A stretch of 64,000 nucleotides of DNA from Norana najaformis (lineage: Eukaryota > Annelida > Clitellata > Crassiclitellata > Hormogastridae). Numbering within the stretch: the first letter of the stretch is position 1; each line of letters opens with the position of its first letter. The position numbers were made by a program, and so were the translations under genes. The DNA lies in NCBI GenBank assembly GCA_964023275.1, contig OZ029914.1, positions 36,692,424 to 36,756,423 on the forward strand, in the 5' to 3' direction. The notes under the pieces were generated by a model. It had not been told where the DNA came from. It was given only the letters and a program-made list of their open reading frames with translations, and made no database searches. Below are positions 17,909 to 62,619 of this stretch, one piece after another.

Positions 17909-17938
17909 AAATCTCAAAACGCGAAGGAAAAGAAAACG

Positions 17939-25371: not shown

Positions 25372-26031
25372 TCAAGAATGCAAATTCACAACCTCAAACA
25401 AAATAGTTATGATAAGCTCAGAAGTGGAGCCTACCTCTGCACGAGAATGGTTGTAGTAAAAATCGTCTTGAAGTTCATTATTCGTACGCCGTTCTTCATA
25501 GCTTTCATCGTTCCAGTTGTCGCTTCTTCTTCCTCTTACATAGCTAATTTCATTTTCAGTTGGATTACGATACTGGCCTCGACCATTTGTTTCAGAGGAG
25601 TCGTCATGGATATCGGAATCTTTATAAAACCTCGAGTGGTCACTGCCTTCGATAGTTCTTGCATAGCGTCCTTCGTTCGGCTGTCTACTGTAACTGTTTC
25701 CCTGTGACGGGTTAATAGAGTCGCGGTAGCCATTTCGCCCTATTTGATCATTACTGCTTTCATCCGTCGTCAAGCCTAGCCTATCGGTTTCTGGCCGCCT
25801 GGACCTCAACATCATTTCTCTTCCGCCGCTTACACTATCAAGTTCAGCATCTTGGGAAGGTGTTTGTTTAGAAATTTTTACTCTTTTGATGATGACGGAA
25901 GCCAGAATAATGACGATGAAGAAAACCAGCGAGGAAGCGACAGTCGCAACGATTATGGTGATGAGTTTTGTGACACTGTTGTCAGAATATTTCAGACAGG
26001 AGCATTTGTAATTCCAGTCACCGACGTTCAC
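25372..26031 (-). CDS. Mucin-IPT exon 21: end of IPT unit 3, transmembrane helix, cytoplasmic tail
   Basis: The last exon has 219 codons plus stop, acceptor AAATGTACAG in phase 0. It begins VNVGDWNYKCSCLKYSDN, the closing strand of a plexin-type IPT domain. A hydrophobic span of about 26 residues follows (LITIIVATVASSLVFF then IVIILASVII), ending in the stop-transfer KRVK. The tail (about 170 residues) is hydrophilic and rich in Arg, Ser, Asn, Asp and Glu. It has about nine tyrosines spaced through it (for example QYRNP, SYVRG, SYEER, DDFYYNH), which could be phosphorylation sites. It has no kinase, GAP or PDZ-ligand motif I recognise. The final 13 or so residues are hydrophobic; a cryptic donor GAG|GTAGGC near 25430 could remove them in another isoform. 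Confidence 0.85.
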   Translation of the reverse strand: MNVGDWNYKCSCLKYSDNSVTKLITIIVATVASSLVFFIVIILASVIIKRVKISKQTPSQDAELDSVSGGREMMLRSRRPETDRLGLTTDESSNDQIGRNGYRDSINPSQGNSYSRQPNEGRYARTIEGSDHSRFYKDSDIHDDSSETNGRGQYRNPTENEISYVRGRRSDNWNDESYEERRTNNELQDDFYYNHSRAEVGSTSELIITILFEVVNLHS

Positions 26032-29000
26032 CTGTACATTTATTATAAGAAGTGTGTAAATATATGTTGAAAACAAACGGATAAATAAATAAACACAAGT
26101 AGGCCTATAGATTACAATTATATGGGTATTGGAATGCCACTTCTACCTTTTCGTTATCAGTTACGAAAGATGCTTAATTTGCTGTAAAAGCTGCTCAACA
26201 AAAACATCCACTGCAGTTCGAATCAAATCGATTCAGTTATAATTGCAAACTGTTATTTATTTAGAACCAAAAGAATTAATTTGTCGGAATAATTCAGTGA
26301 ACTCAAACTAGAATCGTTGTGTCAGTTTTGGCCAGGTTAGTCTTCAGTAAACAATTGTAAATTATTGATTTCATTGCCTCATAACGATAACAAGTTTTAT
26401 TATTAGTGCAATATAAATTGCGGCGTCTTGCATAATTCAAGATTTTTCATACTCAATTTAACAGTGAGAATAAGCACCATAAAATAGCATTGTTTATAAA
26501 TTTTATAAGTGCATTTGCACGGTAAGTATATAAATTTGAAAAACTCCGGATGTTTGACTAACCATAGACAATAAGGTTTAGTTTATTGTATTCGGCTATG
26601 ATAAAACATGGTAAGTTCCGTTTGCTGATCGGCCGGCTGTTGCGTCAAATGCATTGCGTACCTATTTTTGCTTACCATTACTGTATCACAGAAATAGTAT
26701 CAAAATCACATACAAGTATAGCGATATTTTGATCACAGTAGCTGATGTCATATGGTGTCTGTACTGGTTTGGTCTTAGGCGGTGTGCATGTCAGTTGGTT
26801 ATCGGTAAGATCCGTAACGTTGCAGAAGTCATTGCCGAGATGAATTATATACGAATCTGCATTACAGCAACCACTCATGTTTTCTCCCTGTTTAGAGTTT
26901 AAAAAATAACATGTAAGCACAATTAAACAGATATCCCAGAATGGGAAAGGTTTTACACAACAACTGACATAGACATCAGTGAACAACTTTGTACCAATTA
27001 TTAAAATAAAATGGTTTATTTCATATAGTCTAATGAATTATGAAAATTTTATCAGTCTGATATATTTTAGCATACAATCAGTACTCGGGATTAACCTGTC
27101 GACTTTAGAATGGAAGACTGTATATTCCGCTGTAGTCTGCAATTAACCAGTTATGGTGAAAACACTGACCTTGATCTGTAGGAATTCGTCGGAAGTCGGA
27201 TCAAATACACTTTCATCCGGACATGTAAGGCTTGGAGGGAAGTAAATTTCGAACTGTGTCTTTGTTGGATAATTTCGAAATATATCTTTGCTGTATTCTA
27301 AGTAGCCATCGAAGATAACTCCTACGTAAACAATAACTGTGTCATTGCCGTTTTTCCCATCATAAGTTTGGTTGGTATATAGCTTGTCCTTACGTTGACG
27401 ATTTCGTTCTGATTTATCCATATTGGACTCATTGTCATTCAATCGATCGCCTGTGTAAGGTGAATATTTCTTGCCGTATAAGAAAGCTAAGAAATCGTCC
27501 GGAATGTAGATCGGAGGCGATAAACAAATCATCTTAGTACCTCCTGCTGTTGGAAATTCACACGGCTGAAACAGTTTATAACCAACTTCATATTTCATTT
27601 TATCACGCGATGCTAATCATGAAATTCCAAAATCGTTTAAACTAGAAATATTACCTATTATAAAACTGTACAGCATGTTTTAAAATGTAATGTAAGTCGT
27701 TAAATATAAGGTTAGTTTTAAGATCTGCATATTTTTCCCTGAAGTAATGGATAATTCATGCTTTATGTATTATTCTGCTATTCTAAGTTTAGTACGGATC
27801 TGGAATTTTAGACTGTCTGCATAACATAAAAGTAACTAAGTAGAGTAGCATTATTAACGAGCAGTGTTGTTTCATGTATTCGCCAGCGCGTAATTAAGTC
27901 ATTAGCCAACTAAAACCTATTGAAATCGATTGCTACTATTAATTAGGAAAGATTCAATCCAGATGATAGATGCTATGTTTGGTCATGAACAAACCTAATT
28001 AACTGTGACTGCGTTATATTACTTAATTTCTTCAAAGAACAATCTTCAACATGTACAAAATTTTAAACACAAATCAAAGTTCTTAAATGATTGATTCAGC
28101 TAATGTCTTGACATCAAAGGCATGCCACACTTTTTACAAACTACGATAACCGCAACCTATCTTAACCAGCTATTTTGATATCTATCTATTCGACAGCCAT
28201 CAAAACACTATTGATTATGAATCATATGTTTTGAAAAGTTGAATGGAATGCATTGTGTCTTAGCATTTCACGTCATTGAAAAAGTCAGTCGAATGGTGAT
28301 TACCGAAAATGATTCGTTTTTAGTGGATGAACCATCAATTCTCTTTACGACAACTAGAGTTCGCATGACAGGTTTGACAACAGATGTTAGGTTGTTGCCA
28401 GAGATCTCCAACTTTATGCCACCACTAAAATAGCCAGATATTTATTATTTACAATGCTCAGTCATTATATGTAATTATGAAATCGGGTAAGAACGCTTTC
28501 ACGACTCTGACCTTCTGGGTACTGACTTTATTACGTCTTGGTTTTGGTGCGCCATTAGGTGACGCCTGGTGCAATAGCCCCAGGGTCATACAAGTGCCTA
28601 TTATTTAATAATAATAATAATAATAATAACAATAACAGTAATAAAGAATCAGTTTACTAAATTTCTGTATATTCCTTTTAGGGCAGACGCATCTTGATAA
28701 GATTTACTGCTCAGGCCGGCATTCTTTTACAACTTGATACAGATCTACAAATGCAGTGTTCCTAATTTAGTGCATTTAACTTCATTTGGTAATTGTAATT
28801 TGTAATCTTTATCAGAAATTTATCTGGCGCCGTTTCAAGACAGTACAACCTGTGGCGCTCACTGGCCCAATTGCAGTTAAAGGCCAAGAAGAACATAAAG
28901 TTCATCAGTTAGCAAGTAATGCACAGAAAACTAGAAAAGCCCCCAGTGTTTATCTCCCGCACAAATGCAAAACCAAAACAATCGATATACGTTCAGAATT

Positions 29001-32000
29001 CACAGATGACACTGTGTTTGGAGTTTCTGGACCATATTGTACCGAGGATGATGAACAAGAGCCAATGCGGGCCACCGCCAGTTGCACAAGTTTTCCTCAC
29101 TGTTCTGCAGTTTCTGCACAGTTGGCAGTGTTCAGTCTTCTCTTGAGCCAGCACATTGGCAAAGGACAGATAACCGACTGGTTGCAGACGTTTCCGTGGT
29201 TGGTAGTTGAGACAGTAAAGATTTTTCTTCCCTTTCTTTACCAAATCCAAGACTGTCCAGGTTGACGACGACATACAGTTCTATATGCTCCACTCCAAAT
29301 GGGCACCTGTCACCACTCAGTGGTCGGCAAGTACACGAATGGCAGCGAGGAACCGATGAATTAGGACGAAGAACACCGTCCACAGCTCACAAAGAACATT
29401 GTGGAATGGAGTAAAATAAAGAAAAGTAGACTCAGTCGCAAAAGAAGCCGAACAAACGAGAATTATCGAGCAAAGGCTACGCAAGTCGCAGAAAGTTCCA
29501 AATGACAGAGTTAGGCTAAACATGACCAATATTGCCGCAGGCAGACATGTGCATAATCCACCGCTAATTACACGATCAGATTTTCACTTTTTGAAAGTAC
29601 TGTACTCAGCCACACAAAAATAAAATGCAATTGATAAGATAATTGTATTAACTATGTCTAAGATAAAGTTTCGAAAAGTCTGCCTAAATTCTTTAAAATG
29701 TTAAGCCTTTAATTAAACAAACAACATGAACGCACTATTCTTCTTTATGACGGATACTTCAAATTCATTATTTTTGCCCTCTTACTGCTGTTATCTTACC
29801 TCAATGTGAGAATTTTTGGATTGACATCGTATATCTTTGGATTCGGTGCATAAGTGAACGACTTGTTTGTGCTAATGTTGAATGTGCCAGGAATTATTTC
29901 AACGGTGATGAGCAGCGGCAGGCCGATAACTGACGCGTCAGCGGGAGGAGTTAATATTGTAACGTTAAGTCCTGATCTAAAGATCAATTTAATTAATAAA
30001 TTAGTATCTCGCAATTAACTTGGTAGAATTAGTCCAATTTATAAAATTTTCTAATTGCAACGGAACATGTTTGGTCTTTGCTGTTCTTCCTTATGCACAC
30101 AGCTATGGCCTAGTCTTAACTAACAACGTTCCATCAGAACTGCCTGAAACATGCACATACAGCTGGAAACAATTAATGCATAGATATTTACATCCAACAG
30201 ACACGGAACATTAGATGCTGCAAGCCAAGACCTTGGCTTTTGTTGTTCCTTGTTAAACTCAAATATATATATACGTCTGTATATCTTCTCATTTAGGTAA
30301 CAGCGTTATCATAATAATTTACCAAAAAGTATTTTAACATAATTATAGCATTTCTGTTGACAATGAACAGACAGCAGATTCAAAATTGTGGTTTATAATA
30401 AGGAGTGTATAAACCTGGTAATAATTTGCGCCAGCAAATCTGATCCAAAGTAGACTGCAGAAAAGGTACTATTAGGATCTGACCAGAGACCGATAATTGC
30501 AACACGCGTCCCTCCGGCTATCGGACCATAGTCTGGCTTCACGAAGAAGTTAAATGCTGCTCCTATTCAATAAAGAAAGGTATTTTCTACATTCAAGTTC
30601 TAGCTTTGAAATAAGAAAGACACTTTTCGTGTTGTTGCAGGCTTCGAGTTTGTAGTCAAAGATTGATGGGTTGTTGGGACGATAAATCAAAATCAAAAAC
30701 AAACCAGTAATTTAAAAATTCTGTATATTTTGCTATTGCTAAAGATTTACGGCAAGTTAAACTACAGGTTTCTCACACAAATTCTGAAGCAGAGGATCAG
30801 CTTTGTTGGTATAAACCTTTTAGCATTAGAAATCAAATAAATGTGACCACCAAGATAACAGTTTCGTACCTATTCAGGAAAATCCACAACCGAGCAATAA
30901 GATGTTTGGGAAGTTTTTATTTAAAAGATGACTGAAGCCATGTTTTATTCATATTTCAAATCGATAGATTACCGTTCGCGGATGATGTAACCGTGAAGCT
31001 TGTTGTGCCGGATTCAGTGGATGACTTGAAGGCTATCGCAAAATCAAATGTAAATTGCCGTTTAAATATTTCTAAAATATTTCTAATGCTTAAAGGTTTT
31101 GGGCAAATTAAACTCCAGTTTTCCCGTGAGGCTGTTGAAAAAGCGCAAAGGCTTTCCTTTATAGCATTTTTTAACACACTGCAAGCTTCTGCTTGAAAAT
31201 TGCCTTGAAAATTGATTGGAAATGGAACAAGAATTTTAGTCATCTTCTCATAAGCACTCTTAACCTAGTACCAACCTGGCACAATTCGCTGACACTTAAG
31301 AAAACATGAGCTGTGCATAGTTTGTTACTTACCTTTCGTAGTCGTTGAACACTTGCAGCTTGTTGTGAAATGCAAAATATTAATTTAACTATTTCTCTAA
31401 ATCTTGCTATTGCTAAAGCATTTGTGGCAAATTTACCTACAGGATTCTCATGAATTTTCAGAAGCTACGCGTAGTTTTCGTTGACACTAATTTTAATTAT
31501 ACTAGAGCCCAAGCAAATTCCGATATCCTAACTCGACTTTAAATTTTAAATCCTAAGGTTGCAGGGTTTCTCGCCATCTAATTGGAAGTACTCATAGCCG
31601 AGACTTGAGCGGTCTGACAGCTTTTCCTGCTAACAATAAAACCAGAAGAATGTTTAGTTTATCAATTTCAAATCGAAAAATCACCTGTTGTGGTTGTTTC
31701 AGGCCCAAAGGTTGTGGATATCGTGAACACTGTCGAAAGATTAAGTGTAAATCATCAATATAAAATGTTCTAAAGCCTGCTTTGTATAAAATAATAATGG
31801 AAATTTAATTAAATCAAGCTTCCTTATGAGACGTTTGATGAAGTACCGCGTCTTTTCTTTTCCTTCATCCATGAACATTCTCAATAGAAATTGACTCCAG
31901 AGCTTACATGGACTTTCCTCACAGCAAACGACAGCTATCAGACGAAAACCAAAGAAATAAACATACAATTTTCAAACAGGCTCCTGTGGAGTTTATTCTC

Positions 32001-35000
32001 AAAGAGGCGCTCTATAAATCTAAAATAATAACTGAAGTCACTATTATATTTATTAAAAGACATGAGCTTTATATAATTTCAGAAGTATTGTCACCTTTCG
32101 TAGTCGTTGGAGACTCGGAGCTTGTGGTCAAAGCCTGAGAGGTCGTCAAGAACGCTGTCGCAAAAATCAAATGTCAATAGTTAAAATAATTATTTCTCTA
32201 AATCTTTCCAATGCTGTGAGATTTCTGAAGAATTTAACTATTGGTCTTGCATGAACCATTTCACTTTGCACGTCGCTTTCGCAGAGAGTGCCAACTTTTA
32301 CCATTAAAGTCTACACAAGTGCAAAAATGCTACTCCGATTGCCTGGAAATTTTAATTCCTACGCTACCAGGTTTGTTTGGCATCTATCGAAAAGTAATCA
32401 TAGCCTTGCCTTAAACGATCTGAGAGCTATTGCTTTAAGCATTATATCTCTAAAGCTTTCTGCTACTGAGATATTTCTGGTAAATTTAACTATAGTTCCT
32501 TCCTAAACCTTTAGTCTCTGATCATCGGCTTTGCTGATATTACTTCGTTTTACTAAAAGAGACTCTACAAATACGAACATACTAATTTATATTTTGATTC
32601 TCAGGTTAGATTGTTGTTTGGTGTCTATTGAGGAGTAATCGTAGCCGTGCTTTAAGCGATCTGTGAGATATTTCTTTAAAAATTGAAACAAACCGCAAGT
32701 TTTATTCGTTTTTTAGATGGACAAATCACCTTTTGTGGTTGTATTAGGCTCGGAGGTTGTTGTGCCAGATTGAGTGGATGTCGTGAAGGCTGTCGGAAAA
32801 TCAAATGTAAAACAACAATTAAAACATTTTGTAAATTCTTGCTAATTTATAGTTGGAAGGTAAATTTAACTCCAGTTTTCTCACGAGGCTTTTGAAGCAG
32901 TGCCACAGCTTCCCTTTCTCGCAAAAAATTGACTCCTCAGTTATCAAGGATGTACTTCATATACTCAAAATCACTCTCATACAAATACCAAACAAATTCT
33001 CACATCACTTTCAATCAATTTCGCTTTATATAAATTCAGAACCATCAAATCACCTTTCGTATTCGATGAAGAGTTGAAGCTTGTAGTCAAAGGCTGAGAG
33101 GTAGTCAAGACCTCTGTCGCAAAATAAAATGAAAATTGTTAATATAGTTATTTGTCTCAAGCTATCTGCTACCAAGGTATTTCTGACAAATTAAACTATA
33201 GGTTTTTCTAAAACCTTTAGACTCTGCTCGACGGCTTCGCCTATATTACTTCGTTTTAGTAAAACAGACTCTACAAATGCGAACATTCTAATATGATGCA
33301 GTTCATATTTTGATACTCAGGGTTAAATTGTTGATTGGGGTCTATTGAGGAGTAACCGTAGCCCTGTTTATGCGATATGTGAGATATTTCTTTAAACATT
33401 GAAACAAACTGCAAGTATTATTCATCGTTTGACCAATCACCTTTTGTGGTTGTATTAGGTTCGGAGGGTGTTGTGCCCGTTTCAGTAGATGTCGCGAAGG
33501 CTGTCGGAAAATCAAATGTAAAACAAAAATTAAAACATTTCCCAAATTCTTGCTAATTTATTGCTGGAAGGTAAATTTAACTCCAGTTTTCTCACGAGGC
33601 GTTTTGAAGCCGTGCTATAGCTTCTCTTTCTCGCACCTTTTAAACTATAGTGAAATTCTACTAGAAAATTGATTCCTGAGTTCTAAAAGATTTTTTTCAT
33701 ATACTCATAATCACTCTTAGACAAATACTAAAGAAATCATGGCATCATTTCAAACACGTTTATTAAAAGGTATGAGCTTTGTATAATTTCATAAACATCA
33801 AGGCACCTTCCGTGTTCCTTGGAGATTTGGAGCTCGTGGTCAAAGACTGAGTGGTTGTCAATATATCTGTCGCAAAAATAGAATGCATATTGTTAATATA
33901 ATTATTTCACTAGAATTTTCTACTGCTAAGAGATTCCTGGCAAATTTAACTAGAGGTTTCTCATGAGCATTTTGACGTTTCCCATCGCTTTCGATATATA
34001 ACTTCCTTTTACCATTAAAGACTTCACAAGTGCAAAAATGTTACTCAGATTGAATTGAAATTTTGAATCCTACTATTGTAGGGTTGTTTGGCTTCTATTC
34101 AGGATTGATCACAGCCGTCCTTTAAGCGATCTGAGAGTTGTTTCCTTAAACTTTGAAAAAATGCAAGTTTTATTAATTTTTGTTTTAAATGTTCAAATCA
34201 ACTTTTGTGGTTGTTTTAGGCTCGGAGGTTGTTGTGCCAGATTGAGTGGATGATCTGGCACAACAACCTCCGAGCCTAATACAACCACAGCAGGTGATTT
34301 GTTCATTTAAAGAAACGAATAAAACTTGCAGTTTGTTTCAATGCTTAGAGAAATATCTCACAGATCGCTTAAAGCAAGGCTACAACAATTAAAACATTTC
34401 GTAAGTTCTTACTAATTGATAGTTTGAAGGTAAATTTTACTCCAATTTCCACACGAGGCTTTTGAAGCAGTGCCTCAACTTCTCTTTCTCGCACCTTTTA
34501 ACCTAATGTGATATTCTCCTAGACAATTGAATCCCCAGTTATCAAAGATGTTCTTCATATACTTAAAATCACTCTCGTACAAATACCAAACAAATTCTCA
34601 CATCACTTTCAATCAATTTCGCTTTATATAAATTCAGAACCATCAAATCACCTTTTGTAGTCGATGAAGAGTTGGAGCTTGTGGTCAAAGGCTGAGATGT
34701 AGTCAGGACCTCTGTCGCAAAAAAACCAACGTTGTTAATAGGGTTTTTCCCTAAAGGTTTATGCAACTAAGATATTCTGGCAAATGTAACTATAGGTCTT
34801 TCTTGAAACTTTAGTATCTCCTCGTCGGCTTCGCTGATATTACTTCGTTTTACTAAAAGAGACTCTACAAATGCGAACATTCTAATATGATGCAGTTCAT
34901 GTTTTGATAATCAAGGTTAATCGTTGATTTGCGTCTATTGAGGAGTAATCGTAGCCCTGTTTAAGCGATCTGTGAGATATTTCTTTAAACATTGAAACAA

Positions 35001-44000: not shown

Positions 44001-47000
44001 AGTCGTAGTTGGCGTTGTAGGTGAAGTTGATGGCGAGGCAGATGTAGGTGGTTCAGTCGTAGTTGGCGTTGTAGGTGAAATTGATGGCGGGGCAGGTGTA
44101 GGTGGTTCAGTCGTAGGTGGCGTTGTAGGTGAAGTTGATGGCGGGGCAGCTGTTGGTGGTTCAGTCGTAGGTGGCGTTGTAGGTGAAGTTGATGGCGGGG
44201 CAAGCGTAGGAGGTACAGTCGTAGCTGGCGTTGTAGGAGAAGGTGATGGCGGTGCAGCGGTAGGTGGTTCAGTCGTAGTTGCCGTTGTAGGTGAAGTTGA
44301 TGGCGGTGTTGATGTAGGTGGTTCAGTCGTAGTTGGCGTTGTAGGTGAAGATGATGGCGGGGCAGATGTAGGTGGTTCAGTCGTAGTTGGCGTTGTAGGT
44401 GAAGTTGATGGCAGGGTAGCTGTTGGTGTTACAGTCGTAGGTGGCGTTGCAGGTGAAGTTGATGGCGGGGCAGGTGTAGGTGCTTCAGTCGTAGTTGGCG
44501 TTGTAGGTGAAGTTGATGGCAGGGTAGCTGTTGGTGGTTCAGTCGTAGGTGGCGTTGCAGGTGAAGTTGATGGCGGGGCAGATGTAGGAGGTACAGTCGT
44601 AGCTGGCGTTGTAGGAGAAGGTGATGGCGGTGCAGCGATAGGTGGTTCAGTCGTAGTTGGCGTTGTAGGTGAAATTGATGGCGGTGCAGATGTAGGTGGT
44701 TCAGTCGTAGGTGGCGTTGTAGGTAAAGTTGATGGCGGGGCAGCTGTTGGTGGTTCAGTCGTAGGTGGAGTTGTAGGTGAAGTTGATGCAGTGGCAGATG
44801 TATGTGGTTCAGTCGTAGTTGGCGTTGTAGGAGAAGTTGATGGCGAGGCAGATGTAGGTGGTTCAGTCGTAGTTGGCGTTGTGAGTGAAGTTGATGGCGG
44901 TGCAGATGTAGGTGGTTCTGTCGTAGTTGGCGTTGTAGGAGAAGTTGATGGCGGGGCAGATGTAGGTGGTTCATTCATAGATGGTGTTTTGGGTGAAGTT
45001 GATGGCGGGGCAGATGTAGGTATTTCAGTCGTAGGTGGCGTTGCAGGTGAAGTTGATGGCGGTGCAGATGTAGGTGTTTTAGTCGTAGTTGGCGTTGTAG
45101 GTGAAGTTGATGGCAGGGTAGCTGTTGGTGGTTCAGTCGTAGGTGGCGTTGGAGATGAAGTTGATGGCGGGGCAGATGTAGGTGCTTCAGTCGTAGTTGG
45201 CGTTGTGAGTGAAGTTGATGGCGAGGCAGATGTAATTGGTTCAGTCGTAGTTGGCGTTGTAGGTGAAGTTGATGGCGGGGCAGCTGTTGGTGGTTCAGTC
45301 GTAGGTGGCGTTGTAGGTGAAGTTGATGGCGGGGCAGGCGTAGGAGGTACAGTCGTAGCTGGCGTTGTAGGAGAAGGTGATGGCGGTGCAGCGGTAGGTG
45401 GTTCAGTCGTAGTTGCCGTTGTAGGTGATGTTGATGGCGGTGCTGATGTAGGTGGTTCAGTCGTAGTTGGCGTTGTTAGTGAAGATGATGGCGGGGCAGA
45501 TGTAGGTGGTTCAGTCGTAGTTGGCGTTGTAGGAGAAGTTGATGGCGGGGCAGATGTAGGAGGTACAGTCGTAGCTGGCGTTGTAGGAGAAGGTGATGGC
45601 GGTGCAGCGGTAGGTGGTTCAGTCGTAGCTGGCGTTTTAGGTGAAATTGATGGCGGGGCAGATGTAGGTGGTTCAGTCGTAGGTGGCGTTGTAGGTGAAG
45701 TTGATGGCGGGGCAGCTGTTGGTGGTTCAGTCGTAGGTGGCGTTGTAGGTGAAGTTGATGGCGGGGCAAGCGTTCGAAATACAGTCGTAGGTGGCGTTGT
45801 AGGAGAAGGTGATGGCGGTGCAGCGGTAGGTGGTTCAGTCGTATTTGGCGTTGTAGGTGAAGTTAATGGCGGGGCAGCTGTAGGTGTTTCAGTCGTAGTT
45901 GGTGTTGTGGGTGAAGTTGATGCCGTGGCAGATGTAGGTGGTTCAGTCGTAGTTGGCGTTGTAGGAGAAGTTGATGGCGAGGCAGATGTAGGTGGTTCAT
46001 TCGTAGTTGGCGTTGTAGGTGAAGTTGATGGCGGGGCAGATGTAGGTGGTTCAGTCGTAGTTGGCGTTGTAGGTGAAGATGATGGCGTGGCAGATGTAGG
46101 TGGTTCAGTCGTAGTTGGTGTTGTAGGTGAAGTTGATGGCGGGACAGCTGTAGGTGTTAGATTCATAGTTGGCGTTGTAGGTGAAGTTGATGGCGGGGAA
46201 AGCGTACGAGGTACAGTCGTAGTTGGCGTTTTAGGTGAAATTGATGGCGGGGCAGATGTAGGTGGTTCAGTCGTAGGTGGCGTTGTAGGTGAAGTTGATG
46301 GCGGGGCAGCTGTTGGTGGTTCAGTCGTAGGTGGCGTTGTAGGTGAAGTTGATGGCGGGGCAAGCGTTCGAGGTACAGTCGTAGGTGGCGTTGTAGGAGA
46401 AGGTGATGGCTGTGCAGCGGTAGGTGGTTCAGTCGTATTTGGCGTTGTAGGTGAAGTTAATGGCGGGGCAGCTGTAGGTGTTTCAGTCGTAGTTGGTGTT
46501 GTGGGTGAAGTTGATGGCGTGGCAGATGTAGGTGGTTCAGTCGTAGTTGGCGTTGTAGGTGAAGTTGATGGCGGGGCAGATGTAGGTGGTTCAGTCGTAG
46601 TTGGCGTTGTAGGTGAAGTTGATGGCGGGGCAGATGTAGGTGGTTCAGTCGTAGTTGGCGTTGTAGGTGAAGATGACGGCGTGGCATATGTAGGTGGTTC
46701 AGTCGTAGTTGGTGTTGTAGGTGAAGTTGATGGCGGGACAGCTGTAGGTGTTAGATTCATAGTTGGCGTTGTAGGTGAAGTTGATGGCGGGGCAGCTGTA
46801 GGTGTTTCAGTCGTAGTTGGTGTTGTGGGTGAAGTTGATGGCGAAGAAAGCGTACGAGGTACAGTCGTAGGTGGCGTTGCAGGTGAAGTTGATGGCGGGG
46901 CAAGCGTAGGAGGTACAGTCGTAGCTGGCGTTGTAGGAGAAGTTGATGGCGGTGCATCGGTAGGTGGTTCAGTCGTAGTTGGCGTTGTAGGTGAAGTTGA

Positions 47001-50000
47001 TGGCGAGGCAGATGTAGGTGGTTCAGTCGTAGTTGGTGTTGTAGGTGAAGTTGATGGCGGGGCAGCTGTAGGTGTTAGATTCATAGTTGGCGTTGTAGGT
47101 GAAGTTGATGGCGGGGCAGCTGTAGGTGTTTCAGTCGTAGTTGGTGTTGTGGGTGAAGTTGATGGCGGGGCAAGCGTACGAGGTACAGTCGTAGGTGGCG
47201 TTGTAGGTGAAGTTGATGCCGTGGCAGATGTAAGGGGTTCAGTCATAGTTGGCGTTGTAGGAGAAGTTGATGGCGGGGCAGATGTAGGTGGTTCAGTCGT
47301 AGTTGGCGTTGTAGGTGAAGTTGATGGCGAGGCAGATGTAGGTGGTTCAGTCGTAAGTGGCGTTGTGGGTGAAGTTGATGGCGGGGCAGCTGTTGGTGGT
47401 TCAGTCGTAGGTGGCGTTGTAGGTGAAGTTGATGCCGTGGCAGATGTATGTGGTTCAGTCGTAGTTGGGGTTGTAGGTGAAGTTGATGGCGGTGCAGATG
47501 TATGTGGTTCAGTCGTAGTTGGCGTTGTAGGTGAAGCTGATGGCGAGGCAGCTGATGGTGGTTCATTCGTAGGTGGCGTTGTAGGTGAAGTTGATGGCGG
47601 GGCAAGCGTAGGAGGTTCAGTCGTAGATGGCGTTGTAGGAGAAGTTGATGGCGGTGCAGCGGTAGGTGGTTCAGTCGTATTTGGCGTTGTAGGTGAAGTT
47701 AATGGCGGGGCAGCTGTAGGTGTTTCAGTCGTAGTTGGTGTTGTGGGTGAAGTTGATGGCGTGGCAGATGTAAGTGGTTCAGTCATAGTTGGCGTTGTAG
47801 GAGAAGTTGATGGCGGGGAAGATGTAGGTGGTTCAGTCGTAGTTGGCGTTGTAGGTGAAGTTGATGGCGAGGCAGATGTAGGTGGTTCAGTCGTAGCCGG
47901 CGTTGTAGGTGAAGTTGATGGCGGGGCAGATGTAGGTGGTTCAGTCGTAGTTGGCGTTGCAGGTGAAGTTGATGGCGGGGCAAGCGTAGGAGGTACAGTC
48001 GTAGTTGGCGTTGTCGGAGAAGGTGATGGCGGTGCAGCGGTAGGTGGTTCAGTCGTAGTTGGCGTTGTAGGTGAAGTTGATGGCGGTGCAGATATAGGTG
48101 GTTCAGTCGTAGTTGGCGTTGTAGGTGAAGATGATGGCGGGGCAGATGTAGGTGGTTCAGTCGTAGTTGGCGTTGTAGGTGAAGTTGATGGCGGGGCAGC
48201 TGTGGGTGTTAGATTCATAGTTGGCGTTGTAGGTGAAGTTGATGGCGGAGCAGCTGTTGGTGTTTCAGTCGTAGTTGGTGTTGTGGGTGAAGTTGATGGC
48301 GTGGCAAGCGTACGAGGTACAGTCGTAGGTGGCGTTGTAGGTGAAGTTGATGGCGGGGCAGATGTATTGGGTTCAGTCATAGTTGGCGTTGTAGGAGAAG
48401 TTGATGGCGGGGCAGATGTAGGTGGTTCAGTCGTAGTTGGCGTTGTAGGTGAAGTTGATGGCGGTGCAGATGTATGTGGTTCAGTCGTAGTTGGCGTTGT
48501 AGGTGAAGTTGATGTCGAGGCAGCTGTTGGTGGTTCATTCGTAGGTGGCGTTGTAGGTGAAGTTGATGGCGGGGCAAGCGTAGGAGGTTCAGTCGTAGAT
48601 GGCGTTGTAGGAGAAGTTGATGGCGGTGCAGCGGTAGGTGGTTCAGTCGTATTTGGCGTTGTAGGTGAAGTTAATGGCGGGGCAGCTGTATGTGTTTCAG
48701 TCGTAGTTGGTGTTGTGGGTGAAGTTGATGGCGTGGCAGATGTAAGTGGTTCAGTCATAGTTGGCGTTGTAGGAGAAGTTGATGGCGGGGAAGATGTAGG
48801 TGGTTCAGTCGTAGTTGGCGTTGTAGGTGAAGTTGATGGCGAGGCTGATGTAGGTGGTTCAGTCGTAGTCGGCGTTGTAGGTGAAGTTGATGGCGGGGCA
48901 GATGTAGGTGGTTCAGTCGTAGGTGGCGTTGTAGGTGAAGTTGATGCCAGGGTAGCTGTTGGTGGTTCAGTCGTAGGTGGCGTTGCAGGTGAAGTTGATG
49001 GCGGGGCAAGCGTAGGAGGTACAGTCGTAGTTGGCGTTGTCGGAGAAGGTGATGGCGCTGCAGCGGTAGGTGGTTCAGTCGTAGTTGGCGTTGTAGGTGA
49101 AGTTGATGGCGGTGCAGATGTAGGTGGTTCAGTCGTAGTTGGCGTTGTAGGTGAAGATGATGGCGGGGCAGATGTAGGTGGTTCGGTCGTAGTTGGCGTT
49201 GTAGGTGAAGATGATGGCGGGGCAGCTGTTGGTGTTTCAGTCGTAGTTGGTGTTGTGGGTGAAGTTGATGGCGGGGCAAGCGTACGAGGTACAGTCGTAG
49301 GTGGCGTTGTAGGTGAAGTTGATGGCGGGGCAGATGTATTGGGTTCAGTCATAGTTGGCGTTGTAGGAGAAGTTGATGGCGGGGCAGATGTAGGTGGTTC
49401 AGTCGTAGTTGGCGTTGTAGGTGAAGTTGATGGCGAGGCAGATGTAGGTGGTTCAGTCGTAGGTGGCGTTGTACGTGAAGTTGATGGCGGGGCAGCTGTT
49501 GGTGGTTCAGTCGTAGGCGGCGTTGAAGGTGAAGTTGATGGCAGGGTAGCTGTTGGTGGTTCAGTCGTAGGTGGCGTTGCAGGTGAAGTTGATGGCGGGG
49601 CAAGCGTAGGAGGTACAGTCGTAGTTGGCGTTGTCGGAGAAGGTGATGGCGCTGCAGCGGTAGGTGGTTCAGTCGTAGTTGGCGTTGTAGGTGAAGTTGA
49701 TGGCGGTGCAGATGTAGGTGGTTCAGTCGTAGTTGGCGTTGTAGGTGAAGTTGATGGCGGGGCAGCTGTGGGTGTTAGATTCATAGTTGGCGTTGTAGGT
49801 GAAGTTGATGGCGGAGCAGCTGTTGGTGTTTCAGTCGTAGTTGGTGTTGTGGGTGAAGTTGATGGCGGGGCAAGCGTACGAGGTACAGTCGTAGGTGGCG
49901 TTGTAGGTGAAATTGATGGCGGGGCAGATGTATTGGGTTCAGTCATAGTTGGCGTTGTAGGAGAAGTTGATGGCGGGGCAGATGTAGGTGGTTCAGTCGT

Positions 50001-53000
50001 AGTTGGCGTTGTAGGTGTAGTTGATGGCGAGGCAGATGTAGGTGGTTCAGTCGTAGGTGGCGTTGTAGGTGAAGTTGATGGCGGGGCAGCTGTTGGTGGT
50101 TCAGTCGTAGGCGGCGTTGAAGGTGAGGTTGATGGCGGGGCAGATGTATATGGTTCAGTCATAGTTGGCGTTGTAGGAGAAGTTGATGGCGAGGCAGATG
50201 TAGGTGGTTCAGTCGTAGTTGGCGTTGTAGGTGAAGTTGATGGCGGGGCAGATGTAGGTGGTTCAGTCGTAGTTGGCGTTGTAGGTGAAGTTGATGGCGA
50301 GGCAGCTGTTGGTGGTTCATTCGTAGGTGGCGTTGTAGGTGAAGTTGATGGCGGGGCAAGCGTAGGAGGTACAGTCGTATATGGCGTTGTATGAGAAGTT
50401 GATGGCGGTGCAGCGGTAGGTGTTTCAGTCGTAGTTGGCGTTGTAGGAGAAGTTAATGGCGGGGCAGCTGTAGGTGTTTCAGTCGTAGTTGGTGTTGTGG
50501 GTGAAGTTGATGGCGTGGCAGATGTAGGTGGTTCAGTCATAGTTGGCGTTGTAGGAGAAGTTGATGGCGGGGCAGATGTAGGTGGTTCAGTCGTAGTTGG
50601 CGTTGTAGGTGAAGTTGATGGCGAGGCAGATGTAGGTGCTTCAGTCGTAGTTGGCGTTGTAGGTGAAGTTGATGGCAGGGTAGCTATTGGTGGTTTAGTG
50701 GTAGCTGGCGTTGTAGGGGAAGGTGATGGCGGTGCAGCGGTAGGTGGTTCAGTCGCAGTTGGCGTTGTAGGTGAAGTTGATGGCGGTGCAGATGTAGGTG
50801 GTTCAGTCGTAGTTGGCGTTGTAGGTGAAGATGATGGCGGGGCAGATGTATTGGGTTCAGTCGTAGTTGGTGTTGCAGGTGAAGTTGATAGCGGGGCAGC
50901 TGTGGGTGTTAGATTCATAGTTTGGGTTGTAGGTGAAGTTGATGGCGGGGCAGCTGTAGGTGGTTCAGTCGTAGTTGGCGTTGTAGGAGAAGTTGGTAGC
51001 GGGGCAGCTGTTGGTGTTTCAGTCGTAGTTGGCGTTGTAGGTGAAGTTGATGGCGGGGCAGCTGTTGGTGTTTCAGTCGTAGTTGGTGTTGTAGGTGAAG
51101 TTGGTAGCGGGGCAGCTGTAGGTGTTTCAGTCGTAGTTGGCGTTGTAAGTGAAGTTGATGGCGGGGCAGATGTAGGTAGTTCAGTCGTAGTTGGCGCTCT
51201 AGGTGAAGTTGATGGCGGGGCAGCTGTAGGTGGTTCAGTCGTAGGTGGCGTTGCAGTTGAAGTTGGTGGCGGGGCAGATGTAGGTGGTTCAGTCGTAATT
51301 GGCGTTGTAGGTGAAGTTGATGGCGGGGCAAGTGTAGGTGGTTCATTCGTAGTTGGAGTTGTAGGAGAAGTTGGTGGCGGGGCAGCTGTTGGTGGTTCAG
51401 TCGTAGTTGGAGTTGTTGGTGCAGTTGGTGGCGGGGCAGATATAGGTGGTTCAAACGTAATTGGCGTTGTTGGTGAAGTTGGTGGCGGGGCAGCTGTTGG
51501 TGGTTGAGTCGTAGTTGTAGTTGTGTTTGTACCTGTTGTTGAAGGCGTTGTGGGTGCAGTTCGTGGCGGGGCAGCTGTAGGTGGTTCATTCGTAGTTGGA
51601 GTTGTAGGTGAAGTTGGTGGCGGGGCAGATATAGGTGGTTCAAACGTAATTGGCGTTGTACTTGAAGTTGGTGGCGGGGCAGCTGTAGGTGGTTCAGTCG
51701 TAGTTGGCGCTGTAGGTGAAGTTGGTGGCGGGGCAGCTGTAGGTGGTTCATTCGTGGTTGGAGTTGTAGGTGAAGTTGGTGGCGGGGCAGATATAGGTGA
51801 TTCAAACGTAATTGGCGTTGTAGGTGAAGTTGGTGGCGGTGCAGCTGTTTGTGGTTGAGTCGTAGTTGTAGTAGTGTTTGTGCCTGTTGTTGATGGCGTT
51901 GTGGGTGCAGTTGGTGGCGGGGCAGCTGTAGGTGGTTCATTCGTAGTTGGAGTTGTAGTTGAAGTTGGTGGCGGGGCAGATATAGGTGGTTCATACGTAA
52001 TTGGCGTTGTAGGTGAAGTTGGTGTCGGGGCAGCTGTAGGTGGTTCATTCGTAGTTGGCGCTGTAGGTGAAGTTGGTGCCGGGGCAGCTGTAGGTGGTTC
52101 AGTCGTAGTTGGCGCTGTAGGTGAAGTTGGTGGCGGTGCAGCTGTAGGTGGTTCATTCGTGGTTGGAGTTGTAGGTGAAGTTGGTGGCGGGGCAGATATA
52201 GGTGGTTCAAACGTAATTGGCGTTGTAGGTGAAGTCGGTGGCGGGGCAGCTGTTGGTGGTTGAGTCGTAGTTGTGGTAGTGTTTGTACCTGTTGTTGAAG
52301 GCGTTGTAGGTGCAGTTGGTGGCGGGGCAGCTGTAGGTGGTTCAGTCGTTGTTGGAGTTGTAGGAGAAGTTGGTGGCGGGGCAGCTGTAGGTGGTTCATT
52401 CGTAGTTGGAGTTGTAGGTGAAGTTGGTGGCGGGGCAGATATAGGTGGTTCAAACGTAATTGGCGTTGTAGGTGAAGTTGGTGGCGGGGCAGCTGTAGGT
52501 GGTTCATTCGTAGTTGGCGCTGTAGGTGAAGTTGGTGGCGGGGCAGCTGTAGGTGGTTCAGTCGTAGTTGGCGCTGTAGGTGAAGTTGGTGGCAGGGCAG
52601 CTGTAGGTGGTTCATTCGTGGTTGGAGTTGTAGGTGAAGTTGGTGGCGGGGCAGATATAGGTGGTTCAAACGTAATTGGCGTTGTAGGTGAAGTTGGTGG
52701 CGGGGCAGCTGTTGGTGGTTGAGTCGTAGTTGTAGTAGTGTTTGTACCTGTTGTTGAAGGCGTTGTAGGTGCAGTTGGTGGCGGGGCAGCTGTAGGTGGT
52801 TCAGTCGTTGTTGGAGTTGTAGGAGAAGTTGGTGGCGGGGCAGCTGTAGGTGGTTCATTCGTAGTTGGAGTTGTAGGTGAAGTTGGTGGCGGGGCAGATA
52901 TAGGTGGTTCAAACGTAATTGGCGTTGTAGGTGAAGTTGGTGGCGGGGCAGCTGTAGGTGGTTCATTCGTAGTTGGAGTTGTAGGTGAAGTTGGTGGCGG

Positions 53001-54416
53001 GGCAGCTGTAGGTGGTTCATTCGTAGTTGGAGTTGTTGTTGAAGTTGGTGGCGGGGCAGATATAGGTGGTTCAAACGTAATTGGCGTTGTAGGTGAAGTT
53101 GGTGGCGGGGCAGCTGTTGGTGGTTGAGTCGTAGTTGTAGTAGTGTTTGTACCTGTTGTTGAAGGCGTTGTGGGTGCAGTTGGTGGCGGGGCTGCTGTAG
53201 GTGGTTGAGTCGTAGATGTAATGGTGCTTGTAGCTCCATTGCACACTGCATTGGGTGAAAACAGGATCAGTTACGATTGTGAAGAATGTAGAAATTTTAC
53301 AGCCATATAGAACTTGTTGGCTTAACAACTCAAGTCTAATATTATCAAGAATGTAGCCCTTTTATCACGCGATCTGTAGGCAGCATTAATAACCAACTGA
53401 TGGTAATTGGGACAATTCTAGAGCATACTAATAAAACTAACAATTTCTACTGACGAGTATAATACTCAAAATTATACTAATTTCAAAGCCTATATGCCAT
53501 TTAGCTTACAAAACATAGACATATCATGTGTATCATGTCGACCAGGACATGGAGAAGGGGACAGGGGAGCTGTTACCGTGTGTTATGTTTGGGTTAATGG
53601 ATATGGGAAGGCGTTGGGTTAGATGGATCAGGATATAATTTCTTCACAAGGTGAAGCCTTTTTGAACGAAGAGCCTGTGAAGTAATAGACAGAAGAACTT
53701 GAGACAGCTGTTGGGATATAGAAAACTAAAAATTTGAGAAATTCAATAGAGAGAGATCGTTCCAGAGTCAAGGTGTAGTGTGGCATATGGAAAAATCAGA
53801 AAACAACTTGAATAATTACTGGAGGACGGGCAAGAGTGAGGTAAAAGGATGAACGAGTAGAGGGGAATAAGTGAATGGTGAAAATTGCGAAGATAAGTAG
53901 CGTGAGAATATTGCAGAGAGTTAAAGAAAGGACTTTGAAATAATTGCGTTTCTGGATTTTCAGCTAGTTCAGTGTCTTAAAGATTGGAATGATATCGTGA
54001 ATTTTGGATGAGTTGAAGAAGCTGTATTTGAGTGCATTCAAAACGAAGAAAATGATATTACGGTAGTCAATCCTGTAATGGACGATAGAGGTAGGAGATG
54101 GTAGAGGCAGTTTTAAAATCGGGCATAGATCAAATACGGCGAAGGGTACGAATGAGAATGTATAAAACAGGTTCGCGATCGGCAGGAAATGTGATTTGTA
54201 AACCAGAGCTGTGGGTCAAAGGAGACAAATTAGAGGTATCGTGCAGTCTATTTTGTATTTCCAGAGCAAGGCAAGTATATAATAGGAAAGTCTTCCAAAT
54301 CTAAATAAAGACTATATCCTTTCAGTTTACATACAAGTAGGTCGAACCCAAACATGCGTACTCTTACCTGTTGCAAAAAATTGAAAACAAAGCCCAATAA
54401 TTAGAAGCAGCTCCAT
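25372..54416 (-). CDS. Giant membrane mucin with plexin/MET-like IPT domains (spliced gene, 21 inferred exons)
   Basis: This is the whole-gene model; exons are listed separately. The product would be a type I membrane protein of about 5,933 residues. From the N-terminus it has a signal peptide, a mucin region of about 5,120 residues built from 18-residue Pro/Thr/Ser repeats, about 255 residues from Thr/Ser mini-exons, three IPT/TIG-like units, one transmembrane helix and a tail of about 170-185 residues. The IPT part resembles the region next to the membrane in plexins and MET/RON, including the VYVGVIFDGY motif and the paired cysteines. No sema, PSI, kinase or plexin GAP domain is present. 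Support for one gene: each boundary has an AG acceptor and GT donor with matching phase, and coding lengths sum to 17,802 nt (5,934 codons with stop). Function is inferred: a glycosylated cell-surface receptor or barrier protein. Mini-exon inclusion may vary. I know of no named homologue with this architecture. Confidence 0.8.
26765..26887 (-). CDS. Mucin-IPT exon 20: core of IPT unit 3
   Basis: A 123-nt exon, phase 0-0, acceptor CTCTAAACAG and donor CCA|GTACAG. It encodes GENMSGCCNADSYIIHLG and then CNVTDLTDNQLTCTPPKTKP. 'hG...CNVT.LT..QL.CTPP' is the classic plexin/MET IPT centre, with the conserved disulphide cysteine pair. The frame stays open beyond the donor, but splicing at CCA|GT joins it in phase to VNVGDWNYKC. 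Confidence 0.85.
27170..27565 (-). CDS. Mucin-IPT exon 19: IPT unit 2 with plexin-like motif, start of unit 3
   Basis: A 396-nt exon, phase 0-0, acceptor ACTGTTTCAG and donor AAG|GTCAGT. It encodes PCEFPTAGGTKMICLSPP, giving the two cysteines (residues 2 and 14) that frame the 'M.C.SP' turn in plexin IPT repeats. A polar insertion of about 45 residues follows, rich in Lys, Asn and Asp (DNESNMDKSERNRQRKDK). Then comes VYVGVIFDGY, equivalent to the 'VGF..DG' strand of plexins and MET, and finally FEIYFPPSLTCPDESVFDP, which opens IPT unit 3. Sequons NES, NQT and NDT are present. The long charged insertion is unusual for the family. Confidence 0.85.
28304..28424 (-). CDS. Mucin-IPT exon 18: first half of IPT unit 2
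   Basis: A 121-nt exon, phase 2-0, with acceptor GGCTATTTTAG and donor TCG|GTAATC. It encodes, after the shared serine, GGIKLEISGNNLTSVVKPVM and RTLVVVKRIDGSSTKNESFS. SGG-x-x-hxhxGxNL is the plexin/MET IPT opening, and the longer V..P.M segment is typical of plexin repeats. Confidence 0.75.
28425..29799. other. Intron 17 of the mucin-IPT gene with an unassigned plus-strand frame
   Basis: The intron contains a (TAA)n run and a 159-codon plus-strand open frame (28786-29265) with no domain I recognise. It is probably derived from a mobile element; I cannot name it. Confidence 0.4.
28604..28640. repeat. (TAA)n microsatellite
   Basis: TTATTTAATAATAATAATAATAA followed by AACAATAAC variants. It may be the tail of a short retroposon whose body lies just upstream (28500-28600). 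Confidence 0.75.
29800..29976 (-). CDS. Mucin-IPT exon 17: end of IPT unit 1, start of unit 2
   Basis: A 177-nt exon, phase 2-2, with acceptor GATCTTTAG and strong donor AG|GTAAGAT. It encodes SGLNVTILTPPADAS, then a beta-rich stretch ending KSFTYAPNPKIYDVNPKI. The 'tP..' turn, the 'F.Y.p.P.I..v.P' end and the entry into the next unit are typical of tandem IPT domains. N-glycosylation sequons NVT, NIS and NKS are visible. Confidence 0.8.
30415..30562 (-). CDS. Mucin-IPT exon 16: first half of IPT unit 1
   Basis: A 148-nt exon, entered in phase 1 (TTGAATAG acceptor) and left in phase 2 (ACCAG|GTTTAT). It encodes FFVKPDYGPIAGGTRVAIIG followed by WSDPNSTFSAVYFGSDLL. The P-x-x-GP-x-x-GGT-x-hxhxG pattern is the signature start of an IPT/TIG (Ig-like, plexin, transcription factor) domain. 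The domain is completed by the next exon. Confidence 0.8.
30620..30685 (-). pseudogene. Degenerate class B mini-exon
   Basis: The sequence TCAATCTTTGACTACAAACTCGAAGCC can be aligned to class B, but the acceptor is lost and the donor context is altered (AAAAGTGTC). Confidence 0.5.
30973..31032 (-). CDS. Mucin-IPT exon 15 (last mini-exon, class A)
   Basis: A 60-nt phase 1-1 exon encoding AFKSSTESGTTSFTVTSSA, with acceptor GCGATAG and donor G|GTAATC. It is the most divergent intact class A copy, as expected for an old copy at the edge of the array. Confidence 0.65.
31333..31370 (-). pseudogene. Degenerate class B mini-exon
   Basis: The 3' end (TCAACGACTACGAAAG) and a strong donor G|GTAAGT are kept. 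The 5' half and the usual GCGACAG acceptor are deleted, and no nearby AG gives the correct phase. It is likely skipped. Confidence 0.6.
31685..31729 (-). CDS. Mucin-IPT exon 14 (mini-exon, short)
   Basis: A 45-nt phase 1-1 exon encoding VFTISTTFGPETTTT, with acceptor TTTCGACAG and donor G|GTGATT. It is a class A relative that has lost five codons, still in frame. Confidence 0.65.
32095..32154 (-). CDS. Mucin-IPT exon 13 (mini-exon, class B)
   Basis: A 60-nt phase 1-1 exon encoding AFLTTSQALTTSSESPTTT, with GCGACAG acceptor and G|GTGAC donor. Confidence 0.7.
32730..32789 (-). CDS. Mucin-IPT exon 12 (mini-exon, class A)
   Basis: A 60-nt phase 1-1 exon encoding AFTTSTQSGTTTSEPNTTT, with intact acceptor and donor. 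It is the closest intact relative of the broken copy at 34.2 kb. Confidence 0.7.
33054..33113 (-). CDS. Mucin-IPT exon 11 (mini-exon, class B)
   Basis: A 60-nt phase 1-1 exon encoding EVLTTSQPLTTSFNSSSNT. It pairs closely with exon 8, about 1.6 kb away. Confidence 0.7.
33441..33500 (-). CDS. Mucin-IPT exon 10 (mini-exon, class A)
   Basis: A 60-nt phase 1-1 exon encoding AFATSTETGTTPSEPNTTT, with CCGACAG acceptor and G|GTGATT donor. Confidence 0.7.
33807..33866 (-). CDS. Mucin-IPT exon 9 (mini-exon, class B)
   Basis: A 60-nt phase 1-1 exon encoding ILTTTQSLTTSSKSPRNT. It differs from exons 3 and 5 by two residues and has the same acceptor. The donor is G|GTGCC, slightly weaker. Confidence 0.65.
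34100..34385. repeat. Fold-back inverted repeat containing an inverted class A mini-exon
   Basis: The left arm ends at about 34240 and the right arm starts at about 34255, leaving a loop near 14 nt. The core is CGGAGGTTGTTGTGCCAG against CTGGCACAACAACCTCCG. Similarity continues outwards into intron sequence (AGCGATCTG...TTTCTTTAA... on the left, its complement on the right) for roughly 130 bp per arm. The right arm holds a class A exon on the plus strand, opposite to the gene. Confidence 0.85.
34202..34250 (-). pseudogene. Broken class A mini-exon beside the fold-back
   Basis: The sequence matches the second half of a class A mini-exon, but the donor GGTGATT reads GTTGATT. The 5' part, including the acceptor, is missing because the inverted copy starts there. 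It should not splice as the intact copies do. Confidence 0.7.
34652..34711 (-). CDS. Mucin-IPT exon 8 (mini-exon, class B)
   Basis: A 60-nt phase 1-1 exon encoding EVLTTSQPLTTSSNSSSTT, with GCGACAG acceptor and G|GTGATT donor. Confidence 0.7.
35040..35099 (-). CDS. Mucin-IPT exon 7 (mini-exon, class A, divergent)
   Basis: A 60-nt phase 1-1 exon encoding AFTPHAHSDTTISEPKTTT. The acceptor (GGACAG) and donor (G|GTGATT) are intact. The first half has lost several Thr/Ser, so it may be drifting. Confidence 0.65.
35244..35303 (-). CDS. Mucin-IPT exon 6 (mini-exon, class A)
   Basis: A 60-nt phase 1-1 exon encoding ALATSTETATTTAEPESTT. It is a diverged class A copy with intact splice sites. Confidence 0.7.
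35636..35695 (-). CDS. Mucin-IPT exon 5 (mini-exon, class B)
   Basis: A 60-nt exon identical in sequence to exon 3, with the same acceptor and donor. The flanking intron is also nearly identical. Confidence 0.75.
36033..36092 (-). CDS. Mucin-IPT exon 4 (mini-exon, class A)
   Basis: A 60-nt phase 1-1 exon between CCGACAG acceptor and G|GTGATT donor. It encodes AFATSTETGTTTSEPKTTT. It is the prototype of the class A mini-exon. Confidence 0.75.
36426..36485 (-). CDS. Mucin-IPT exon 3 (mini-exon, class B)
   Basis: A 60-nt phase 1-1 exon between GCGACAG acceptor and G|GTGAC donor. It encodes a Thr/Ser segment containing ILTTTQSLTTSSNSP. It is identical to exon 5, showing a recent duplication of about 790 bp. 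Confidence 0.75.
36836..36968. repeat. AT-rich tandem duplication (about 66-70 bp, two copies)
   Basis: Two copies share ATATATAAACTA followed by GATTAATATACGTAATTTAT and TTATATATAATTAATA. It is seen directly, with no coding meaning. Confidence 0.8.
36975..37040. repeat. Short direct repeat GGGGCTACTGTCC
   Basis: AGGGGCTACTGTCC followed by a GAGGGTT element occurs twice within about 60 bp. Confidence 0.6.
37080..37340 (+). mobile_element. LINE reverse-transcriptase fragment (same family as 56.7 kb)
   Basis: The plus strand reads KMKTGYEVAKKLDFIKKG, which matches the KMKTGYDVAEEL stretch of the reverse-transcriptase fragment at 56.86 kb, and further loosely conserved sequence follows. It is a short 5'- and 3'-truncated relic inside intron 2. 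Confidence 0.6.
37883..53245 (-). CDS. Mucin-IPT gene exon 2: giant Pro/Thr/Ser repeat exon
   Basis: This is a single uninterrupted coding exon of 15,363 nt (5,121 codons), entered at TTTTCACCCAATGCAG|TG and left at ACAACAG|GTATGC, both phase 1. It is made of about 284 copies of an 18-residue unit whose commonest form is PPTSAPPSTSPTTPTTTE. Variants such as PPTAAPPPTSPTTPTTNE dominate the first 700 or so residues. Nearly every unit has one acidic residue, many Thr/Ser O-glycosylation candidates and many prolines. The single cysteine noticed is at the very start. The composition predicts an extended, densely O-glycosylated mucin stalk outside the cell. No stop or frameshift interrupts it, which implies selection or very recent homogenisation. 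Its last residues (PSTTG, then the donor) mark the end of the repeat. Confidence 0.9.
38791..43030. repeat. Higher-order duplication of about 2.1 kb inside the minisatellite
   Basis: A characteristic unit with GTAGTAGTTACAGTCGTAG starts at 38791 and again at 40912. The following order of rare unit variants (GATGCCGGGGC, GGCAGGGTAGC, GGCGGGGAAGG, GGCGGTGTTGA) is the same in both blocks. The offset is 2,121 bp: 39 units of 54 bp plus a 15-bp in-frame insertion near 39915 in the first block. Confidence 0.85.
51508..53210. repeat. Higher-order repeats at the N-terminal end of the mucin exon
   Basis: A 27-residue variant unit that includes GTNTTTTTTQ recurs at plus-strand positions near 51508, 51858, 52263, 52722 and 53127. 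Spacing is about 350, 405, 459 and 405 bp, i.e. 6-8 ordinary 54-bp units plus 27 bp. This is a multi-unit block duplicated several times. Confidence 0.85.
53246..54367. other. Intron 1 of the mucin-IPT gene
   Basis: No coding or repeat feature was recognised. The acceptor at the low-coordinate end reads CTGATCCTGTTTTCACCCAA followed by TGCAG (minus strand). Confidence 0.6.
54368..54416 (-). CDS. Mucin-IPT gene exon 1: signal peptide
   Basis: The minus strand opens with an ATG at 54416 and encodes MELLLIIGLCFQFFAT, a short hydrophobic signal peptide with a small-residue end. It runs directly into a strong donor, G|GTAAGAG. The exon leaves one base of a codon (phase 1). Joined to exon 2 it forms a GTG valine codon and continues VCNGATST. 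The match of donor quality, phase and signal peptide fixes this as the start of the gene. No convincing TATA box was seen upstream. Confidence 0.85.
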
Positions 54417-58236: not shown

Positions 58237-58244
58237 GGTAGACT

Positions 58245-62616: not shown

Positions 62617-62619
62617 CTG

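Follow-up and report, generated by a model that had tools for sequence, protein, structure and literature searches.

The domain structure of plexins is, in the cited passages of one source, remarkably similar from choanoflagellates to animals, and sponge plexins with a truncated intracellular domain exist (PMC6374515). According to the cited part of another source, plexin-Bs carry a unique mucin-like domain of 230 aa in the ectodomain, located between PSI2 and IPT2; in plexin-B1 and plexin-B2, moreover, IPT5 contains a proprotein convertase site (PMC10206189). Among mucins, the human transmembrane members have either a SEA domain or a variant VWD domain, and the P/T/S region of chicken Muc13 is split into exons with one repeat each, as described in the cited sections (PMC1552070). 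SmPoMuc of Schistosoma mansoni is portrayed, in the excerpt cited here, as having a signal peptide, a repeat region, and 15 exons, which are 60 bp long on average (PMC2576457).

Here, we describe a locus of the annelid Norana najaformis, located in a 64,000-nt stretch of contig OZ029914.1 that was analyzed as a whole (the window). On the minus strand, from 54416 to 25372, 21 exons join to a single open frame of 17,853 nt and 5,950 aa, in which a signal peptide, a P/T/S exon, 13 mini-exons, three IPT/TIG domains, one transmembrane helix, and a 171-aa tail follow in this order. The spliced coding sequence is divisible by three, its sole stop is terminal, and the phases match at the joints, with phase 1 common to all joints from exon 1 through the first IPT exon. 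Thus, all parts named in the original prediction, which had placed them on one strand with matching phases and a coding sum divisible by three, were located. The locus is probably one gene, encoding a giant single-pass membrane mucin with a P/T/S brush on a plexin-derived IPT stalk; at the level of the predicted protein, the domain architecture is genuine, well supported, and unusual. Its features are as follows (positions in the window):

54368..54416 (-), exon 1: carries the start codon and encodes the signal peptide, beginning MELLLIIGLCFQFFAT; ends in phase 1
37883..53245 (-), exon 2: giant P/T/S mucin exon; 15,363 nt, 5,121 codons, phase 1-1
36426..36485 (-), mini-exon 1, D type; 60 nt, phase 1-1
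36033..36092 (-), mini-exon 2, A type; 60 nt, phase 1-1
35636..35695 (-), mini-exon 3, D type; 60 nt, same sequence as mini-exon 1
35244..35303 (-), mini-exon 4, A type; 60 nt
35040..35099 (-), mini-exon 5, A type; 60 nt
34652..34711 (-), mini-exon 6, E type; 60 nt
33807..33866 (-), mini-exon 7, D type; 60 nt, weak donor
33441..33500 (-), mini-exon 8, A type; 60 nt
33054..33113 (-), mini-exon 9, E type; 60 nt
32730..32789 (-), mini-exon 10, A type; 60 nt
32095..32154 (-), mini-exon 11; 60 nt
31685..31729 (-), mini-exon 12; 45 nt
30973..31032 (-), mini-exon 13; 60 nt
30415..30562 (-), first half of IPT1, GPIAGGTRVAIIG; weak donor
29800..29976 (-), second half of IPT1 and start of IPT2
28304..28424 (-), middle of IPT2; weak donor
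27170..27565 (-), end of IPT2, inserted loop, and start of IPT3
27317..27487 (-), hydrophilic loop of 57 aa, located where plexins have IPT5 and containing the basic run KSERNRQRKDK
26714..26887 (-), IPT3 core, FCNVTDLTDNQLTCTPPKTKP; 44% identity over 41 aa with a Lottia plexin; weak donor
25372..26031 (-), last IPT strand, transmembrane helix LITIIVATVASSLVFFIVIILASVII, 171-aa tail, and stop
25242..25247 (-), AATAAA, candidate poly(A) signal ~125 nt past the stop
25429..25434 (-), alternative donor GTAGGC within the tail, after 25435; would lead to further exons

Donors were scored with a generic weight table and compared with background GTs. The exon 1 donor CAG/GTAAGA reaches 7.2, the top of the 20 donors, and the exon 2 donor (4.3) is similar to those of most mini-exons. 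Four of the 20, belonging to the exons ending at 33807, 30415, 28304, and 26714, fall short of the 95th percentile of the background.

The plexin-like character of the membrane-proximal region is supported by several searches. In the 558-aa membrane part, the Pfam TIG family is matched with E 9e-10, and with the cut-off relaxed to a permissive E 10, three stretches are recognized, in line with the IPT/TIG search that had been proposed for the assembled protein. In the PDB, a sequence search returns plexin-A1 first (E 9.2e-07), followed by other plexin-A entries, and MET with E 0.003. A homologue search with the same part found none at E <=1 among the 7,997 best-sharing candidates scored, and in a wider length band, with 7,989 scored, a single match emerged, the Lottia gigantea plexin P0029 (E 7.4e-21), which comprises PSI, IPT, RhoGTPase-binding, and RasGAP domains. 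Over the last three IPT domains and the transmembrane helix of P0029, the IPT-transmembrane part aligns colinearly (106 of 440 alignment columns identical) and shares with P0029 the core FCNVT..QLTCTPPK. Together, the plexin-A1 and Lottia matches bear out the plexin/MET-like character of the IPT ectodomain that is probably joined to the mucin.

Taken singly, each of the three IPT domains aligns to P0029 better than all of its shuffled versions (0 of 2,000 as good), and the inserted loop is unremarkable in this comparison (1,600 of 2,000). For IPT1, the register is less secure, since this domain alone fits P0029 best at 386-438, one domain before its colinear partner at 474; in the alignment with P0029, the cysteines present in the plexin counterpart are also missing from it. 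The 361 residues preceding the transmembrane helix contain 11 N-glycosylation sequons and 10 cysteines, and the helix itself has a mean hydropathy of 2.93. The model combines membrane-proximal IPT domains, a plexin feature, with a signal peptide and one transmembrane helix, features of transmembrane mucins that are present by hydropathy. In the alignment, the basic-rich loop (27487-27317) falls inside the IPT5-equivalent and, by position only, offers a candidate convertase site. When bacterial and archaeal contigs were scanned, 17 stretches fitted the pattern, none of them a relative.

The mucin part is dominated by exon 2, whose frame extends over 5,143 codons from stop to stop and translates into a P/T/S repeat with a period of 54 nt, or 18 aa (T 34.9%, P 31.6%, S 13.9%; Ser/Thr 48.9%). 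Including the mini-exons, the P/T/S-rich region amounts to ~5,376 residues, and the long repeated P/T/S domain typical of transmembrane mucins is therefore present. No Pfam family is matched in the first 230 residues. Across exon 2, 1,319 nt depart from the 54-nt consensus without creating a stop, compared with ~41 stops expected by random substitution, a rough figure as the repeat copies share ancestry. Of the 52 synonymous single changes that are possible, 36 are seen in the repeat, as are 69 of 105 non-synonymous ones, as against none of five stop types. As stops are absent and both other types of change are similarly used, the frame is kept while the residues drift; the similar use of the two types is a point against the membrane-mucin reading. 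The codon-position bias is weak, with a mean minor fraction of 0.095, 0.057, and 0.061 at positions 1, 2, and 3. The antisense strand of the exon also displays long frames (1,884, 2,310, and 370 codons), so that frame length by itself is weak evidence.

Twelve of the 13 mini-exons are exactly 60 nt long, and the remaining one has 45 nt. On this strand, a scan for open 45- or 60-nt segments with splice-like ends and >=45% S/T gave 12 matches in phase 1 and none in the other two phases (0 and 2). The opposite strand gave none; four other 7,280-base stretches together gave one match, summed across the three phases. Since the scan criteria were chosen post hoc, this is a specificity check rather than an independent test. 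The mini-exon at 35099-35040, with S/T at 8 of 20 residues, lies under the scan cut. Compared with the introns upstream of them, the mini-exons show no clear excess conservation, and we therefore do not claim purifying selection on their residues. Between 36485 and 32730 (-), the mini-exons sit in duplicated stretches in which D/E and A types mostly alternate; mini-exon 1 has the same sequence as mini-exon 3, and the introns immediately upstream of these two agree at 89 of 95 bases.

The leader bears on whether mucin and stalk belong to the same gene. In a strict scan for a start codon, a hydrophobic leader, and a phase-1 donor, exon 1 is the sole match between 30,563 and 64,000, which favors one gene. 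On the same strand, the control region 25,371-1, where none were expected for this gene, gave four matches at three places, indicating that leader-like exons arise by chance about once per 8 kb. Exon 1 exceeds these control matches in donor score (7.2 versus <=4.8) and hydropathy (2.56 versus <=2.46).

The alternative that survives best, although we regard it as unlikely, is a pair of adjacent genes, one for a secreted mucin (exons 1-2) and one for an IPT-transmembrane protein (mini-exons and IPT exons) with its own leader. Read past its donor, exon 2 runs into a stop at 37839 after 14 codons, which makes a secreted form possible. Poly(A)-like hexamers are present in the gap between exon 2 and the IPT exons (20 AATAAA/ATTAAA sites), and a relaxed leader scan finds one weak alternative at 37733-37679 (donor 0.6). 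Moreover, errors in gene prediction are reported to yield spurious domain combinations (PMC4967905). In contrast, the strict scan is devoid of any leader exon from 37,838 to 30,563, and the mini-exons share phase 1 with exon 1, exon 2, and the first IPT exon. With a frame intact across 21 exons, agreeing phases, and a single strict leader between 30,563 and 64,000, the single-gene claim of the original prediction is probably correct.

Probes for the plexin head from PSI to IPT3 and for the plexin cytoplasmic part gave nothing above noise in the window. A head probe made of PSI-IPT1-3 of P0029, which starts at PSI, reached at best E 0.21 in tblastn against the window, versus E 5e-08 for the IPT3 exon in a similar search. 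The gene model contains no PSI domain; the short pattern C.[WY]C occurs seven times in the window and never in the model exons, and the plexin-like pattern QF..[LM]L gives two chance-like matches, at 34329 (+) and 37637 (-). Nor does the model contain a Sema domain, exon 1 being joined to a pure P/T/S exon. The proposal that the mucin replaces the sema domain agrees with the lack of Sema in the model and is too narrow in extent: because the plexin match is limited to the membrane-proximal IPT domains and the transmembrane helix, the mucin occupies the place of more than Sema. A plexin cytoplasmic probe gave no match in the window better than E 2.0 (tblastn) or E 4 (phmmer, over 1,585 pieces), and RasGAP, a plexin feature, was not found there. 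Three kinase motif patterns (regular expressions, not HMMs) had no match in the six frames of the window. The predicted absence of an enzyme inside the cell agrees with these searches. In the 558-aa membrane part, neither SEA nor VWD is matched by Pfam at E up to 10, and Rfam and tRNA scans returned no matches.

The tail, with 171 residues, a net charge of -7, and nine tyrosines, is not plexin-like when compared with P0029 (389 and 1,975 of 2,000 shuffles as good). Its last 20 residues look hydrophobic and unlike the remaining tail, and the alternative donor after 25435 scores 3.7, above the 95th percentile of 1.3 for 1,349 background GTs, so that an extension of the tail through this donor is a genuine alternative to the stop at 25372. 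Both observations would suit a signalling receptor of plexin or Met-LP type with a mucin for its head, in which the tail continues past this donor into enzyme or docking exons; lophotrochozoans and echinoderms have Met-LP kinases whose plexin ectodomain is complete, according to the cited part of PMC6374515. Against this reading, which we consider distinctly improbable, stand the tail comparison, the cytoplasmic and kinase searches of the window, and the candidate end of the gene. An ORF of 690 aa with Mab-21 similarity lies downstream on the opposite strand at 17888-19960 (+) and, together with the AATAAA at 25247, fits a gene end near 25.2 kb. Very improbable indeed is a decaying locus, in which repeat expansion broke a plexin paralogue whose protein is no longer made: the four weak donors and the failure to find PSI and GAP in the window would suit it, but 5,950 codons run without stop or frameshift, the 1,319 repeat departures include no stop, and all mini-exons but one measure exactly 60 nt, the other 45.

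The surroundings contain further ORFs. In Pfam, the Mab-21 ORF matches the Mab-21 nucleotidyltransferase (E 1.1e-11) and Mab-21_C (E 7.3e-14) families; 25 relatives were found at E <=0.001, Pinctada imbricata among them, the top five being 53-60% identical. Its family is that of cGAS-like enzymes. At 62279-62704 (-), an exon-like ORF appears immunoglobulin-like by eye; it has no Pfam match, and 21 of its 22 weak PDB matches (best E 0.11) are antibodies or another Ig-fold protein. A fragment similar to it lies at 58018-58293 (-). By eye, ORF fragments at 15062-15397 (-) and 59788-60066 (+) resemble a retrotransposon endonuclease and reverse transcriptase.

Returning to the proposed membrane mucin, its layout recalls that of the plexin-Bs. 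To their mucin-like domain and, in B1 and B2, their IPT5 convertase site correspond here a mucin ahead of the IPT stalk and, by position, a basic-rich loop in the IPT5-equivalent; unlike in the plexin-Bs, the mucin is N-terminal and ~5,376 aa long, no Sema is present in the model, and PSI and GAP were not found in the window. The likeness is drawn from the published description, in the passages cited (PMC10206189). The view that plexins are devoid of a mucin therefore does not hold for plexin-Bs, although theirs lies inside the ectodomain and not at the N-terminus. The architecture had been called apparently undescribed, and none of the open-access PMC papers listed in our searches showed a mucin on an IPT stalk that lacks Sema; the plexin-B mucin-like domain is nevertheless a precedent that tempers the novelty. 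This domain and the IPT5 convertase site, which corresponds in position to our basic-rich loop, make a plexin-B-like origin attractive, again by description. By analogy, the layout may be plexin-B-like with a vastly expanded mucin and with head and GAP lost: a plexin-B-like gene with a small mucin-like domain would have expanded this domain and lost the head and the GAP.

The Lottia plexin P0029 has the last three IPT domains and the transmembrane helix in common with our model, and differs in its head and GAP, which were not found here. With Met and Met-LP, the locus shares the plexin-type IPT ectodomain (MET at E 0.003 in the PDB); in contrast to them, the model has no Sema head, and the kinase patterns are without match in the window. 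A Met-LP kinase, having the same ectodomain as plexin, is a possible source of the stalk. MUC4, MUC13, MUC16, and other transmembrane mucins likewise consist of a signal peptide, a long P/T/S region, one transmembrane helix, and a tail. The SEA or VWD domain described for the human members in the sections cited (PMC1552070) is absent from the 558-aa membrane part at E <=10. Chicken Muc13 resembles the locus in that its P/T/S region is also divided into small exons, to judge from the same sections. SmPoMuc, by its description, has a like gene layout of signal peptide, repeats, and ~60-bp exons; however, its repeat is a 27-bp exon in genomic units of ~1 kb, and the word “transmembrane” has no occurrence in that text (PMC2576457).

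Dense O-glycosylation would turn the P/T/S part of such a protein into a stiff brush. Mucins extend by 0.2-0.25 nm per residue, and the brush would accordingly be roughly a micrometre in length. The three IPT domains could serve as a stalk that keeps the brush apart from the membrane, and the tail might couple the mucin to the cytoskeleton or to adaptors. As the model has no semaphorin-binding head, semaphorin reception is unlikely; from its anatomy, and given that no GAP was found in the window, the protein would most likely be a tethered glycoprotein that forms a barrier or keeps surfaces apart, and not a receptor for semaphorins. A receptor function of another kind, or a part in immunity, gamete recognition or allorecognition, as suggested in the original prediction, would be conjectural. 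Splicing of the symmetric phase-1 mini-exons could alter the length of the brush with the frame intact, read-through at the exon 2 donor would yield a secreted form ending 14 codons on, and cleavage at the basic loop could nick or release the ectodomain. More speculatively, and with rather little confidence on our part, the locus may represent a class in which a plexin stalk was captured by a micrometre-long mucin that varies in length by splicing and repeat number, is releasable at the convertase site of the IPT5-equivalent, signals through its tyrosine-rich tail, and controls contacts by size or takes part in self/non-self recognition.

A stalk that was kept while a giant mucin took the place of the ligand-binding head would make the IPT stalk a reusable anchor. 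The small mucin-like domain of plexin-B offers a testable route of origin, and a plexin-type IPT stalk would extend the anchor types of transmembrane mucins beyond SEA and VWD.
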